Source: Jatrophihabitans endophyticus
GTDB taxonomy: Bacteria; Actinomycetota; Actinomycetes; Mycobacteriales; Jatrophihabitantaceae
Assembly: GCF_900129455.1 (NCBI RefSeq)
Contig: NZ_FQVU01000007.1
Coordinates: 1-64,000, forward strand
Reading direction: 5' to 3'
DNA length: 64,000 bases
Position 1 is the first letter of the stretch. Each line of letters starts with the position of its first letter. Positions 7,157-26,532 of the stretch are shown piece by piece. The position numbers were made by a program, and so were the translations under genes. Below the pieces are notes generated by a model, which was given only the letters and a program-made list of their open reading frames with translations, was not told the DNA's origin and did not search any database.

Positions 7157-10100
7157 GTGTTCGCGCCCCCGTCCGTCGCCGAGCTGCGCGAGCGGCTGGA
7201 GGGGCTGACGATCCGCGACGCCGCGCGGCTGCGCCGCCGCCTCGACGGGTTGCGACGGCGGGACGACCCGCGGGCCCGGGCGCAGGTCACCGAGCAGATC
7301 GCGCGGGGCGAGGGGTTGATCGAGACACGGCGGTCGGCCGTCCCCGACATCCGCTACCCCGACCTGCCGGTCAGCGCGAAGCGCGACGACATCGCCACCG
7401 CGATCCGCGAGCACCAGGTGGTCGTCGTCGCCGGTGAGACCGGCTCGGGCAAGACGACGCAGCTGCCCAAGATCTGCCTCGACCTCGGTCGCGGCGTGCG
7501 CGGGACGATCGGCCACACCCAGCCGCGCCGCCTCGCCGCGCGCACCGTCGCCCAGCGCATCGCCGACGAGGTGGGCTCCCCGCTCGGCGACACCGTCGGC
7601 TACACCGTCCGCTTCACCGACGAGGTCAGCGACCGCACCCTCGTCAAGCTGATGACCGACGGCATCCTGCTCGCCGAGATGCAGCGCGACCGCCGGCTGC
7701 TGCGTTACGACACGCTCATCCTGGACGAGGCGCACGAGCGCAGCCTGAACATCGACTTCCTGCTGGGCTACCTCAAGCAGCTGCTGCCGCGGCGTCCCGA
7801 CCTCAAGGTCGTGGTCACGAGCGCGACCATCGAGCCCGAGCGGTTCGCCGCCCACTTCGCCCAGCCGGACGGCACGCCGGCGCCGATCGTCGAGGTGTCG
7901 GGCCGGACCTATCCGGTCGAGATCCGCTACCGACCGCTGGAGGTGCCGGTAGGGCGCACGGGCGACGCCGAGTCCGACGACGGCGCCGACGATCCGGACC
8001 ACGAGGTCGTCCGCATCGAGACGCGCGACCCCACCGAGGCCATCGTGGACGCGGTCGCCGAGCTCGAACGCGAGGCGCCCGGCGACGTCCTCGTGTTCCT
8101 GTCCGGCGAACGCGAGATCCGCGACACCGCCGATGCGCTGTCGGGGCTGCGCAACACCGAGGTGCTGCCGCTCTACGCGCGGCTCTCGACCGCCGAGCAG
8201 CAGAAGGTGTTCCAGCCGCACACCGGTCGCCGGGTGGTGCTCGCGACGAACGTCGCCGAGACGTCGTTGACCGTCCCGGGCATTCGGTACGTCGTCGACC
8301 CTGGCACCGCGCGCATCTCGCGCTACTCGCGGCGGACGAAGGTGCAGCGGCTGCCGATCGAGCCGGTGTCGCAGGCGTCGGCGGCGCAGCGGGCCGGGCG
8401 CTGCGGCCGCGTCGCCGACGGCATCTGCATCCGGCTCTACGCCGAGGACGACTTCGCCGCCCGGCCGCGCTACACCGACCCCGAGATCCTGCGGACGAAC
8501 CTGGCGTCGGTCATGCTGCAGATGGCGGCGCTGCAGCTCGGCGACGTCGCCGACTTCCCCTTCCTCGACCCGCCTGACAAGCGCAGCGTCCGCGACGGGG
8601 TGCAGCTGCTGCAGGAGCTCGGCGCCTTCGATGCGGCCGGTGCGATCACCGACGTCGGCCGTCGGCTCGCGCAGCTGCCGGTCGACCCGCGCATCGGCCG
8701 GATGATCCTCGCGGCCGACACCGAGGGGTGCGTCCGCGAGATGCTCGTCCTCGCGGCGGCGCTGTCGATCCCCGACCCGCGCGAACGCCCCGTCGACAGG
8801 GAGGATGCGGCGCGGCAGAAGCATGCCCGCTTCGCCGACGAGCACTCCGACTTCGTGTCGTTCCTCAACCTGTGGCACTACCTGCGCGAGCAGCGGCAGG
8901 AGCGGTCGGGCAACCAGTTCCGTCGGATGTGCCGAGAGGAGTTCCTGCACTACCTGCGCATCCGCGAGTGGCAGGATCTCGTCGGACAATTGCGCACGAT
9001 CGCGCGAAATCTCGACGTCGTAGAGTCGGACGAGCCGGCGCCCCCTGAACGCATCCATGCCGCTCTCCTCGCCGGGTTGTTGGGCCATGTCGGCGCCCGC
9101 GAGGGCGACAACCGCGACTACCTCGGCGCGCGCAACTCGCGCTTCGTGCTCGCGCCCGGATCGGTGCTGACGAAGCGGCCGCCGCGGTGGATCGTGGTCG
9201 CCGATCTCGTCGAGACGTCGCGGCTGTTCGGCCGTGTCGCGGCGCGCATCGACCCCGAGACCGTCGAGCGGGTCGCGGGCCCGCTGGTGCAGCGGACGTT
9301 CAGCGAGCCGCACTGGGACGCCAAGCGCGGCGCGGTCATGGCCTACGAGCGGGTCAACCTCTACGGTCTGCCGCTCGTCCCGCGTCGAAGAGTGGGGTAC
9401 TCGACGGTCGAACCGGACGTGGCCCGCGACCTGTTCGTGCGGCACGCCCTGGTCGAGGGCGACTGGACGACGCGGCACCACTTCTTCCGTGACAACGAGG
9501 CGCTGCGGGCCGAGCTCACCGAGCTGGAGGAGCGGGCCCGCCGCCGGGACCTGCTCGTCACCGACGACGAGATCCACGCCTGGTACGACGCCCGGGTGCC
9601 GGCGGAGGCGGTGTCGCAGCGGCACTTCGACGCGTGGTGGAAGAAGCAACGGCATCGGACGCCGGATCTGCTGACGATGACCCGCGACGACCTGCTGCGC
9701 CACGACGACGACGCACCCGAGACGCTCGAGACCTGGCGGGCCGGGGACCTCGCGCTGCCGGTGACCTATCGCTTCGAGCCCGGTGCGGCCGACGACGGCG
9801 TCACCGTGCACGTCCCCGTCGACGTGCTCGCCCGCCTCGGCGGCGAGGAGTTCGCGTGGCAGGTCCCTGCGCTGCGCGAGGAGCTGGTCGTCGCGCTGCT
9901 GCGCGGGCTTCCCAAGGAGCTGCGCCGCAACTTCGTCCCCGTGCCCGACACCGCGCGGGCGGTGCTCGCCGAGTTGCAGCCCGGGCAGGATCCGCTGCTG
10001 CCCGGACTGCAGCGCGAGCTGCAGCGACGCACCGGCGTGCTCGTCCCGCTCGAGGCGTTCGACGTGGACAAGGTGCCCGGCCACCTGCGGGTGTCGTTCG

Positions 10101-11080
10101 CCGTCGAGGACGCGACCGGGGACGTCGTCGCGCGCGGCAAGGACCTGACCGCGCTGCAGGAGGAGCTGGCCGCGCCGGTCCGCGCCGCGGTGGCCGCCGC
10201 CGTGGCTGGGGAGCTGGAGCGCGGCGGGCTCACCGCGTGGCCGGCCGACCTCGCCGAGCTGCCGCGCAGCGTCGAGCGCAGCAGTGGTGCCCACACCGTC
10301 CGCGGGTTCCCGGCGCTGGTGGACGAGGGGGGTTCGGTCGCGGTCCGCGTGTTCGCGACGGCGGCCGAGCAGGCGGCCGCGATGCGTCCCGGCGTCCGCC
10401 GGCTGCTGCGGCTCGCGACGTCCTCACCGGTGAAGGCCGTGGAGCGGACGATCGGCACGCGGTCACGGCTCGTCCTCGGCTCGAACCCCGACGGCTCGCT
10501 CGCCGCGCTGATCGACGACGCGGCCGACGCCGCCGTCGACTCGCTGGTCGCCGAGCCGGTGTGGACGCGTGACGGGTTCGAGCAGCTGCGCGCGACGGTG
10601 GCCGGGCAGCTCGTCGCGGTGACGGCGGACGTGGTGCGCCGCGTCGAGGCGGTGCTCGCCGCCGCCCACGAGGTGCGGCTCGCGCTGCCGGCCGACCCGC
10701 CGCGCACCCAGGCGGAGTCGATCGCGGACGTCCGCGAGCAGTTTCGGCGGCTGCTGCCCGTGGGCTTCGTGACCCGCATCGGCGCGGCGCACCTGGCCGA
10801 CGCCGCGCGCTACGTCACTGCGATCGGGCGGCGGCTCGAGATGCTGCCCCGCGACGTCGACACCGACCGGGGGAGGATGCTGCGCGTCCATGCCGTCCGC
10901 GACGCGTACGACGAGCTGGTACGGGCGCTGCCGCCGATCCGGGCGGCGGCCGAGGACGTCCGCGACATCGCCCGGCTGATCGAAGAGCTGCGGGTGAGCG
11001 TGTGGGCGCAGCAGCTGGGCACCCCCCGTCCGGTCAGCGAGAAGCGGATCTACCGCGCCATCGACGCGATCGAGTTGTAG
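7157..11080 (+). CDS. hrpA: ATP-dependent RNA helicase HrpA
   Basis: About 1307-residue DEAH-box helicase of the HrpA family, which in bacteria acts on mRNA and stalled ribosomes. Motif I GETGSGKTTQ at about residues 93-102; motif II DEAH at 190-193; motif III SAT in VVTSATIE; motif VI QRAGRCGR. Then the winged-helix, ratchet and OB regions, and a long C-terminal DUF3418-like part ending near EKRIYRAIDAIEL. Length matches the family (about 1300). GTG 7157 (VFAPPSVAELRERL) was chosen; a TATCCT hexamer 7 bp upstream of it could be the -10 of a leaderless transcript. Confidence 0.95.
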   Translation: MFAPPSVAELRERLEGLTIRDAARLRRRLDGLRRRDDPRARAQVTEQIARGEGLIETRRSAVPDIRYPDLPVSAKRDDIATAIREHQVVVVAGETGSGKTTQLPKICLDLGRGVRGTIGHTQPRRLAARTVAQRIADEVGSPLGDTVGYTVRFTDEVSDRTLVKLMTDGILLAEMQRDRRLLRYDTLILDEAHERSLNIDFLLGYLKQLLPRRPDLKVVVTSATIEPERFAAHFAQPDGTPAPIVEVSGRTYPVEIRYRPLEVPVGRTGDAESDDGADDPDHEVVRIETRDPTEAIVDAVAELEREAPGDVLVFLSGEREIRDTADALSGLRNTEVLPLYARLSTAEQQKVFQPHTGRRVVLATNVAETSLTVPGIRYVVDPGTARISRYSRRTKVQRLPIEPVSQASAAQRAGRCGRVADGICIRLYAEDDFAARPRYTDPEILRTNLASVMLQMAALQLGDVADFPFLDPPDKRSVRDGVQLLQELGAFDAAGAITDVGRRLAQLPVDPRIGRMILAADTEGCVREMLVLAAALSIPDPRERPVDREDAARQKHARFADEHSDFVSFLNLWHYLREQRQERSGNQFRRMCREEFLHYLRIREWQDLVGQLRTIARNLDVVESDEPAPPERIHAALLAGLLGHVGAREGDNRDYLGARNSRFVLAPGSVLTKRPPRWIVVADLVETSRLFGRVAARIDPETVERVAGPLVQRTFSEPHWDAKRGAVMAYERVNLYGLPLVPRRRVGYSTVEPDVARDLFVRHALVEGDWTTRHHFFRDNEALRAELTELEERARRRDLLVTDDEIHAWYDARVPAEAVSQRHFDAWWKKQRHRTPDLLTMTRDDLLRHDDDAPETLETWRAGDLALPVTYRFEPGAADDGVTVHVPVDVLARLGGEEFAWQVPALREELVVALLRGLPKELRRNFVPVPDTARAVLAELQPGQDPLLPGLQRELQRRTGVLVPLEAFDVDKVPGHLRVSFAVEDATGDVVARGKDLTALQEELAAPVRAAVAAAVAGELERGGLTAWPADLAELPRSVERSSGAHTVRGFPALVDEGGSVAVRVFATAAEQAAAMRPGVRRLLRLATSSPVKAVERTIGTRSRLVLGSNPDGSLAALIDDAADAAVDSLVAEPVWTRDGFEQLRATVAGQLVAVTADVVRRVEAVLAAAHEVRLALPADPPRTQAESIADVREQFRRLLPVGFVTRIGAAHLADAARYVTAIGRRLEMLPRDVDTDRGRMLRVHAVRDAYDELVRALPPIRAAAEDVRDIARLIEELRVSVWAQQLGTPRPVSEKRIYRAIDAIEL

Positions 11081-23877: not shown

Positions 23878-26532
23878 GTGACGTTGGGCGCACTACGCGA
23901 AAGACTGCGCTCGCGCACCGTACTGATCGTCCTGCTCGGCGTCGTGATCGCGGCCGGGTTGATCACCACCCTCGCGGTCACCGGCGCCGACCCGACCGTC
24001 CGCAGCCGGTCGCAGTTCGTCACGGGGACGCCCGAGCCCGACGGCACCGCCGTCCGCCTCGACACGACGCTCTACCTGCCCGAGACCACCCCGGCGCCGG
24101 CCGTCCTGCTGACCCAGGGCTTCGGCGGCGACAAGTCGGGCCTGCGCAGCGACGCCGAGCGGTTCGCCCGCTCGGGTTACGTCGTCCTGACCTACACCGC
24201 ACGCGGTTTCGGCAAGTCCGGCGGCAAGATCCACTTCGCGTCGCCGCGCTACGAGGTCGCCGACGCGAAACTGCTCGTCACCTACCTCTCGCAGCGCGAC
24301 GAGGTGAAGCGCAGCGGCGGCCAGGCGCAGATCGCCGCGGCCGGTTCGTCCTACGGCGGCGGGCTGTCACTGCTGCTCGCCGGTTACGACCCGCGGGTGA
24401 AGGCGGTCAGCGCCGACATCACCTGGAACGACCTCGAGCAGGCGTTCTTCCCTAACTTCGGCGGCACCGGGCCGGGCCCGTTCAAGAAGCTCTGGGTCGG
24501 CCAGCTCTTCGGCAACGGCTTCGGCGACCGGACGAGCGGCGGCCTGCAGGCCCTGCTAGGCGGCCGCCGCGAACCGACGGTGAGCGGGACGCCGACCTGC
24601 GGCCGGTTCGCCGCCGACGTCTGTCGCGCCTACCAGCAGTCGGCCGCCCGGGGCGCACCGACGGCGGCGCTGCGCACGCTGATGCGCGAGGCGAGCCCGG
24701 CGACGATCCTGTCGCGCATCAAGGCCCCGACCCAGCTGACGCAGGGCGAGCAGGACTCGCTGTTCCCGCTGAGCCAGGCCGACGCGAACGCCCGGGGCAT
24801 CGCCGCGACCGGGACGCCGGTGTCGGTGTCGTGGCGCGCCGGTGGGCACGACAACAGCGCCGCGGGGGGTTCGACCGCCGCCAACAACGCGATCTCGTGG
24901 TTCGGCAAGGTCTTCGCCGGTGACGACCTGCGCGGCGCGCAACCGTTCACCTACTCGCAGGACGACGGCGTCATCAGCGCCGAGACCGGTGACAGCGAGC
25001 GCTCGACGATGCGCGCGGCCGCGTACCCGACGCTCGCGTTCGGCAGCGGGAAGACCACCGGGTACGCGCTGACCGGGCGGCCGCAGACCGTCTCGTCGCC
25101 GGCGGGCGGCGTCCCCGCGGTCATCACGAGCATCCCCGGGCTGGGCGGCATCTCCGGCCGCTTCGACCGCGCGCTCGCGGTGCTGCCCTCCGCGCCGGGG
25201 CAGACCGCGCTGTTCAGCACGGCGACGATCGACAACGACACGACCGTCGTGGGCCGCTCGAACGTCCGCATCACCGTCACCGCGCGGAACTCGACCGACA
25301 CCGTGCTCTTCGCCGGGCTGCGCGACCTCGCCCCCGACGGCTCGTACACGCTGCCCTCGCAGCTCGTGTCGCCGCTGCGCGTCACCGGGCTCACCCCCGG
25401 GCAGCCGAAGACCGTCGACGTCGCCCTGCCGACCGTCGTCCAGCACGTGCTGCCCGGTCATCGGCTGGTGCTGTCGGTGAGCACGTCGGACTTCGCGTAC
25501 GCCGGCCCGGCCGAGCCGCGCAGCTACACCATCGGTCTCGCCGCCGAGGCCACCCCGTTGCGGGTCGCGTCCGGGGTGAAGGGCACCGAGGTGTCCGGCG
25601 GGTTCCCGCTCGGCTGGCTGTTCGCCGGCCTCGGCGCGTGCCTGCTCGTCGCCCTGCTCGTGGGAGCGGTGTTCCTGCGGCGCCGCCGGGTGCTGCGGCC
25701 GGACCCCGACCTCACCGACGTCCCGGTCAGCGTGCGCAACCTCGTCAAGGAGTACTCCGGCGGGTACCGCGCCGTGGACGACATCAGCTTCCGCGTCGAG
25801 AAGGGCCAGGTCGTCGGCCTGCTCGGCCCCAACGGCGCGGGCAAGACGACGGCGCTGCGCGTGCTCGTCGGCCTCATCACCCCGACCTCGGGTGAGCTGC
25901 ACGTCTTCGGCCAGCCCGTCGCGCCGGGCGCGCCGGTCCTGTCGCGGCTCGGCTCGTTCATCGAGGGCCCGGGCTTCCTGCCGCACCTGACCGGCCGGGA
26001 GAACCTGCGGCTCTACTGGGCCGCGACCGGGCGTCCCGACGACGAGGCCGAGTTCACCGTCGCGCTCGACATCGCCGGTCTCGGCGGCTCCATCGACCGC
26101 CGCGTCCGCACCTACAGCCAGGGCATGCGGCAGCGGCTCGGCATCGCGCAGGCCATGCTCGGCCTGCCCGAACTGCTCGTGCTCGACGAGCCGACCAACG
26201 GCCTCGACCCGCCGCAGATCGCCGAGATGCGTGAGGTCATGAAGCAGTACGCCGACACCGGACGGACGGTCGTGGTGTCGAGCCATCTGCTCTCCGAGGT
26301 CGAGCAGACCTGCACGCACGTGGTCGTCATGCACAAGGGCCGCGTGGTGTCGGCCGGGTCGGTCGACGAGATCTCGGGCACCGACGGGGCCCAGCTCGCC
26401 GTGGGCGACCCCGCCCGCGCCGCCGAGATCCTGGCCGCGGCCGGCGTCGACGCCGAGCTCGTGCCGGCCCGCCGCTCGCTCGAGGACGTGTTCCTCGAGC
26501 TCATCGGGGAAGAGGTGGACGTCAGTGGCTGA
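23878..26532 (+). CDS. Fusion: extracellular X-Pro-dipeptidase-like hydrolase, membrane helix and ABC ATPase
   Basis: 884 residues joining two enzymes. Residues 15-36 form a membrane segment (TVLIVLLGVVIAAGLITTLA). Residues about 45-395 are an alpha/beta hydrolase of the S15/CocE type with Ser158 in AGSSYGGG and a histidine in RAGGHDNS. About 400-565 is a jelly-roll PepX_C-like domain. About 579-600 is a second membrane helix. From 610 a complete ABC ATPase follows: Walker A GPNGAGKTT at about 650, signature YSQGMRQRLG, Walker B LLVLDEPTNGLD. The hydrolase would face outside and the ATPase inside. The permease gene overlaps the 3' end by 8 bp. Confidence 0.9.
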   Translation: MTLGALRERLRSRTVLIVLLGVVIAAGLITTLAVTGADPTVRSRSQFVTGTPEPDGTAVRLDTTLYLPETTPAPAVLLTQGFGGDKSGLRSDAERFARSGYVVLTYTARGFGKSGGKIHFASPRYEVADAKLLVTYLSQRDEVKRSGGQAQIAAAGSSYGGGLSLLLAGYDPRVKAVSADITWNDLEQAFFPNFGGTGPGPFKKLWVGQLFGNGFGDRTSGGLQALLGGRREPTVSGTPTCGRFAADVCRAYQQSAARGAPTAALRTLMREASPATILSRIKAPTQLTQGEQDSLFPLSQADANARGIAATGTPVSVSWRAGGHDNSAAGGSTAANNAISWFGKVFAGDDLRGAQPFTYSQDDGVISAETGDSERSTMRAAAYPTLAFGSGKTTGYALTGRPQTVSSPAGGVPAVITSIPGLGGISGRFDRALAVLPSAPGQTALFSTATIDNDTTVVGRSNVRITVTARNSTDTVLFAGLRDLAPDGSYTLPSQLVSPLRVTGLTPGQPKTVDVALPTVVQHVLPGHRLVLSVSTSDFAYAGPAEPRSYTIGLAAEATPLRVASGVKGTEVSGGFPLGWLFAGLGACLLVALLVGAVFLRRRRVLRPDPDLTDVPVSVRNLVKEYSGGYRAVDDISFRVEKGQVVGLLGPNGAGKTTALRVLVGLITPTSGELHVFGQPVAPGAPVLSRLGSFIEGPGFLPHLTGRENLRLYWAATGRPDDEAEFTVALDIAGLGGSIDRRVRTYSQGMRQRLGIAQAMLGLPELLVLDEPTNGLDPPQIAEMREVMKQYADTGRTVVVSSHLLSEVEQTCTHVVVMHKGRVVSAGSVDEISGTDGAQLAVGDPARAAEILAAAGVDAELVPARRSLEDVFLELIGEEVDVSG

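Follow-up and report, generated by a model that had tools for sequence, protein, structure and literature searches.

A conserved single-chain fusion of a predicted surface serine hydrolase with an ABC ATPase, accompanied by an ABC-2 permease

A gene in the 64,000-nucleotide stretch of Jatrophihabitans endophyticus DNA analyzed here (the window) encodes, in one frame of 884 codons (GTG start, 884 amino acids), a transmembrane helix, an S15 hydrolase domain, a PepX_C domain, a second transmembrane helix, and a complete ABC ATPase (Table 1). The frame, its domains, both active sites, and the permease gene that accompanies it are conserved across families. We propose, with moderate confidence, that the two genes encode an ABC-2 (type V) exporter, in which a surface hydrolase borne by the ATPase acts on the departing cargo.

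RESULTS

One frame encodes a hydrolase and an ABC ATPase

The initial annotation had described a single polypeptide joining an S15 hydrolase (Ser158) to an ABC ATPase (Walker A near residue 650), with two membrane helices framing the hydrolase and a permease gene following with an 8-bp overlap, and each of these points was recovered. Pfam assigns the domains listed in Table 1; the S15 domain scores 64.1 bits against a cut-off of 23 and the permease scores 44.2 bits against a cut-off of 27.2 (PF12679). Ser158 lies in the motif GSSYGG and belongs to a probable Ser-Asp-His triad with Asp293 and His324, which was assigned by alignment rather than structure. Walker A reads GPNGAGKT, and the signature, Walker B, and H-loop are also present, making the ATPase complete. 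The two helices are the hydropathy peaks of the window protein, and the permease frame overlaps the fused frame by 8 bp. When residues 1 to 800 are divided into eight blocks of 100 codons, GC content at codon position 3 is between 0.93 and 1.00 in every block, and this uniformity across the junction gives no sign of a frame change there. The PepX_C domain, the Cys241/Cys249 pair, and the glutamate at the Q-loop place are additions to the initial annotation.

Table 1. Features of the fused gene and its permease partner (positions in the window; counts refer to the aligned fused proteins)
Feature	Position	Strand	Evidence and conservation
Fused gene, TM1-S15-PepX_C-TM2-ABC ATPase	23878..26532	+	ORF, Pfam; frame unbroken in relatives
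TM helix 1, residues 15-33	23920..23976	+	Hydropathy; found in 77/79
Peptidase_S15 alpha/beta-hydrolase domain, residues 55-296	24040..24765	+	Pfam PF02129, 2.2e-17
Nucleophile Ser158	24349..24351	+	79/79; role from family motif
Cys241 and Cys249, likely disulfide, predicted outer face	24598..24624	+	77/79 each; putative disulfide
Probable catalytic Asp293	24754..24756	+	78/79
Probable catalytic His324	24847..24849	+	77/79
PepX_C beta domain, residues 440-548	25195..25521	+	Pfam PF08530, 1.7e-15
TM helix 2, residues 582-600, basic stretch after	25621..25677	+	Hydropathy; found in 79/79
ABC ATPase core, residues 634-774	25777..26199	+	Pfam PF00005 (ABC_tran), 2.1e-29
Walker A, residues 650-657; signature, residues 746-753; Walker B, residues 766-772 (ABC ATPase)
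Glu696, at the Q-loop Gln place	25963..25965	+	78/79
H-loop His803, just past the ABC core	26284..26286	+	79/79
ABC-2 permease, 327 aa	26525..27508	+	Pfam PF12679 (ABC2_membrane_2), 1.9e-11; follows 77/79 fused loci

The hydrolase is predicted to lie outside the cell

From the sequence, we predict that the chain crosses the membrane twice, so that the hydrolase faces the exterior and the ATPase the cytosol. The placement of the hydrolase is based on the charge pattern at both helices, the cysteine pair, and the N terminus of a standalone hydrolase relative from the same genome (L003), which by eye resembles a signal peptide. The C-terminal side of the second helix is the more positive in 74 of the 79 fused proteins and the N-terminal side of the first helix in 77 of 77, although for some of these proteins the stretch scored ahead of the first helix may be partly untranslated. 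A weak extra hydropathy peak (1.61 to 1.87) occurs inside the hydrolase in five of the 57 relatives collected first. A single-sequence fold (mean pLDDT of 37.2) played no part in the topology call. At the level of sequence, the picture drawn in the initial annotation, of a surface enzyme tethered to a pump motor with its permease adjacent, is well supported.

The fusion recurs in related genomes and is almost always intact

How often the fusion occurs, and with which permease, had been raised in the initial annotation; the partner is an ABC-2 permease. By hand count, a strong orthologue (E value of 4.3e-97 or better) is present in 86 of 121 genomes sampled from the organism's own order, and 85 of the 86 orthologues have one unbroken frame. 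For 77 of them, the listed match covers hydrolase and ATPase in one frame, and one frame was seen in the locus DNA of eight more (G436, G428, G419, G448, G460, G412, G490, and G496). The listed match counts one stop in G447, G459, G439, and the contig-edge copy of G483, presumably the gene's own end. In the remaining orthologue, that of G478, the coding sequence is split immediately past the second helix into two overlapping frames, one for the hydrolase and one for the ATPase, which may reflect a sequencing error or a true break; this copy (L109/L156) belongs to a 3.4-Mb genome. Outside the 86, the 74% complete genome G425 has a copy with several frame breaks. Apart from these two copies, we found no relatives with adjacent separate genes. 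A strong orthologue is absent from 34 of the 121 genomes, including two of 15 from the organism's own family (G477 and G489).

Of 396 genomes sampled from the phylum, 24 carry the whole fusion in one unbroken frame by hand count, the source genome of the window included; in genus g8, 10 of 11 genomes do so. In one further genome (G326), the last part of the fusion sits at a contig end, and a hydrolase frame sits at a different contig end. A scan of genome contigs returned seven loci, whose matches fall, among the listed residues, within the ATPase only, and showed no fused relative. Among the 5,000 best records of a plasmid collection, query coverage reaches 80% or more in two alone, those of Tsukamurella tyrosinosolvens and Nonomuraea gerenzanensis. 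The Tsukamurella gene, EL451_RS08105, is a single CDS over both halves, annotated as an alpha/beta fold hydrolase; the gene after it, EL451_RS08110, is annotated as an ABC transporter permease and overlaps it by 4 bp. The annotated start at this locus (L160:7920-10295) is about 55 codons inside an open frame (7755-10292), and the annotated protein may therefore lack the first helix. The Nonomuraea fusion was matched in two pieces (46.5% identity) and is unannotated there. Literature searches restricted to open-licence papers gave no description of the fusion among the matches listed, and it may be described outside that scope.

Both active sites are conserved, and two copies have lost parts of both

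Across an alignment of 79 fused sequences (57 collected first and 22 added), identity to the window protein is 39 to 61%, with a median of 47%. Mean column conservation is 0.61 in the S15 domain, 0.51 in PepX_C, and 0.77 in the ATPase. The three triad residues are kept nearly throughout (Table 1), as are those of the ATPase (Lys656, Asp770, Glu771, and His803 in 79/79; signature Ser747 in 77/79). The two cysteines are replaced together in L026 and L030, both of genus g8, as expected of a disulfide. A glutamate at the Q-loop place also occurs in 8 of 12 unfused ATPases, a set that excludes L044 (a terminal fragment of a fused gene), and it is thus not specific to the fusion.

His324 and Ser747 are lost in the same two of the 79 rows, G450 (L121) and G486 (L162) of genus g273. 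In both, the signature serine is replaced by glycine and the threonine after Walker B by methionine, and Ser158 is kept; G450 additionally lacks Asp293. This joint loss, from one lineage, hints at coupling between hydrolase and ATPase.

The fused gene and the permease gene appear to form a module

The permease gene adjoins the fused gene in 77 of 79 loci, and the other two loci (L081 and L100) are at contig ends. Within the organism's own family, PurK/PurE and one or more of UGD, GPI, and Gnd flank the module in five of six regions; the stretch examined in the sixth (L133) has PurK and PurE but none of the other three. These surroundings are shared synteny. Because the neighbors change outside the family, the gene pair seems to be a module complete in itself. 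In the 24 regions (window included), the most common non-core neighbor clusters outside the family synteny are an MFS-scanned gene (6), UvrB (6), and a metallo-beta-lactamase fold (5). The ten neighbors scanned gave no clear hint of a substrate, and none of them was recognized as a gene for resistance or peptide biosynthesis. At L143, a prolyl-oligopeptidase-type (S9) gene (8941-10878) adjoins the fused gene, and a gene near the fusion in another family (L142:4609-6567) is similar to it by BLAST cluster.

The fused hydrolases form one group

In a hydrolase tree built with a quick method, the fused copies form one group separate from 19 standalone S15 sequences, and only the frame-broken copy of G478 is nested among them. 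Read most simply, the tree suggests a single ancient fusion event. At 15 standalone S15 loci (L110-L119 and L122-L126), no permease of this kind is nearby in the stretches available, some of which end at contig ends; other ABC frames are near two of them (L111 and L119).

In the ATPase tree, three unfused sequences (L045-L047) stand beside deep fused lineages. Their loci have an ATPase and a permease and no recognizable hydrolase of this kind nearby (for L149, about 1 kb upstream only). They may be ancestral or may have lost the hydrolase secondarily, and the tree fits both. A further sequence (L048), on a long branch, is placed inside the fused group, at an unsure position. At its locus (L048/L152, genome G288), relatives of the ATPase and of the permease share one 607-amino-acid frame, which is a different fusion within the same kind of pump.

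Comparison with known systems

In NCBIfam, the ATPase matches best the subfamilies of lantibiotic protection (TIGR03740) and daunorubicin resistance (drrA), both far below cut-off (179.4 bits against 309.75 and 171.5 bits against 312.45, respectively). Among solved structures, ABCA lipid transporters are the best matches to the ATPase, and the solved chains nearest to the hydrolase, 8yzo and 8yzn, are both named Lipase; no solved relative of the permease was found at an E value of 0.1. The LanF, BcrA, and DrrA ATPases belong to the nearest NCBIfam subfamilies and resemble the fused protein in having glutamate at the Q-loop place and a separate ABC-2 permease. The fused protein differs from them in its scores far under the cut-offs, its one permease gene, and the surface hydrolase predicted on its ATPase. 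With S15/CocE-type secreted hydrolases, it shares the S15 and PepX_C domains, and the genome itself has a standalone relative (L003). The standalone relatives inspected, in contrast, lack the second helix, the ATPase, and the permease, and the fused hydrolases group apart from them.

C39 peptidase-containing transporters (PCATs) also join a peptidase-type enzyme to an ABC ATPase, but their enzyme is a cysteine peptidase in the cytosol, and they have a transmembrane domain of their own. The fused protein has no C39 match among Pfam families at an E value of 0.001, and its enzyme, unlike theirs, is predicted to lie outside. Among known systems with an ATPase subunit that reaches outside by a transmembrane helix, the closest is TagGH, a type V exporter of wall teichoic acid (PMC11466899). 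There, the TagH ATPase is joined via a transmembrane helix to an outer domain, an architecture that hydropathy and charge also predict for the fused protein. The TagH domain is C-terminal, SH3b-like, and non-enzymatic, and is attached by one added helix, whereas the outer domain of the fused protein would be an N-terminal S15/PepX_C serine hydrolase between two helices.

DISCUSSION

We hypothesize that the two genes encode an ABC-2 (type V) exporter whose ATPase subunit bears its own surface enzyme. Each ATPase chain would start in the cytosol, cross the membrane, fold its S15/PepX_C part outside, recross, and end as the ATPase. Two fused chains and two permeases would probably assemble, placing two hydrolases above the exit. 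As in other members of the ABC-2 family, ATP hydrolysis would presumably expel the substrate from the cell or the membrane, and the hydrolase would cleave an ester or amide in the leaving substrate, a form of export-coupled processing. Hydrolysis and transport could thus be coupled, as the initial annotation suggested, with a peptide or an ester as the putative substrate. A stronger version, in which the outer hydrolase and the inner ATPase control each other via the two helices so that export and cleavage of a metabolite, lipid, or peptide occur in one cycle, is possible and we advance it only tentatively.

In support of the exporter hypothesis are the domains and the 8-bp gene overlap, the fusion unbroken in 85 of 86 order orthologues, the conservation of both active sites, the permease at 77 of 79 loci, the predicted outside placement, the joint loss of hydrolase and ATPase residues, and the single group that the fused copies form in the hydrolase tree. 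Against it, the hydrolase-free ATPase-permease relatives (L045-L047) indicate that the core pump can do without the hydrolase, the system is missing from 34 of the 121 genomes of the order, and G450 and G486 retain the fusion although their triad is broken. Decay of both sites together is confined to one lineage, 5 of 57 relatives have the weak extra hydropathy peak in the hydrolase, and the neighbors give no clue to the substrate.

That an assembly or frameshift artefact merged two genes is scarcely credible. Chance long open frames do occur in high-GC genomes, and the halves of the G478 copy lie in two overlapping frames; against this, an unbroken frame is shared by 85 of the 86 orthologues from the order and by 24 of the 396 genomes from the phylum, the 79 aligned proteins are 39 to 61% identical to the window protein, the coding signal is even over residues 1 to 800, and EL451_RS08105 is annotated as one CDS. 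The initial annotation had named a frameshift joining two genes, or separate genes in most relatives, as findings that would speak against a true fusion. The unbroken orthologues and the even codon-position GC refute the frameshift as a general explanation, and a split is found in G478 alone, with several breaks in G425. The fusion could instead be a plain tether, which fixes the ratio of hydrolase beside pump for stability or co-expression, without functional coupling. The 15 standalone hydrolase loci without this permease nearby fit such an arrangement, as do the unfused pumps, but we judge it unlikely, given that all but one of the 86 order orthologues retain the fusion, that both active sites are conserved, and that the two rows losing the histidine are the two with an altered ABC signature.

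Systems of the LanF/BcrA type are thought to pull antibiotics from the membrane. The module could similarly be a self-protection pump that extracts membrane-inserted peptide or lipid antibiotics, which are then destroyed by the surface hydrolase; its substrate would arrive from outside, unlike cytosolic cargo. The best NCBIfam matches, TIGR03740 and drrA, point in this direction, and so does the glutamate at the Q-loop place, present in 78 of 79 fused proteins. This feature of LanF-type ATPases, the E loop, is reported for lantibiotic immunity ATPases in the title of Okuda et al. 2010, as cited in PMC7038271. Yet both NCBIfam scores are far under their cut-offs, the glutamate is too common in unfused relatives (8/12) to be specific, and the scanned neighbors include no recognized resistance or peptide biosynthesis genes, and we regard self-protection as a rather doubtful alternative to the export-coupled processing that we favor.

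The one named copy that is annotated is called just an alpha/beta fold hydrolase, and a transporter of this kind may therefore be overlooked. With an outer enzyme predicted on the motor of an inner pump, coupling between export and surface chemistry through one chain becomes testable.
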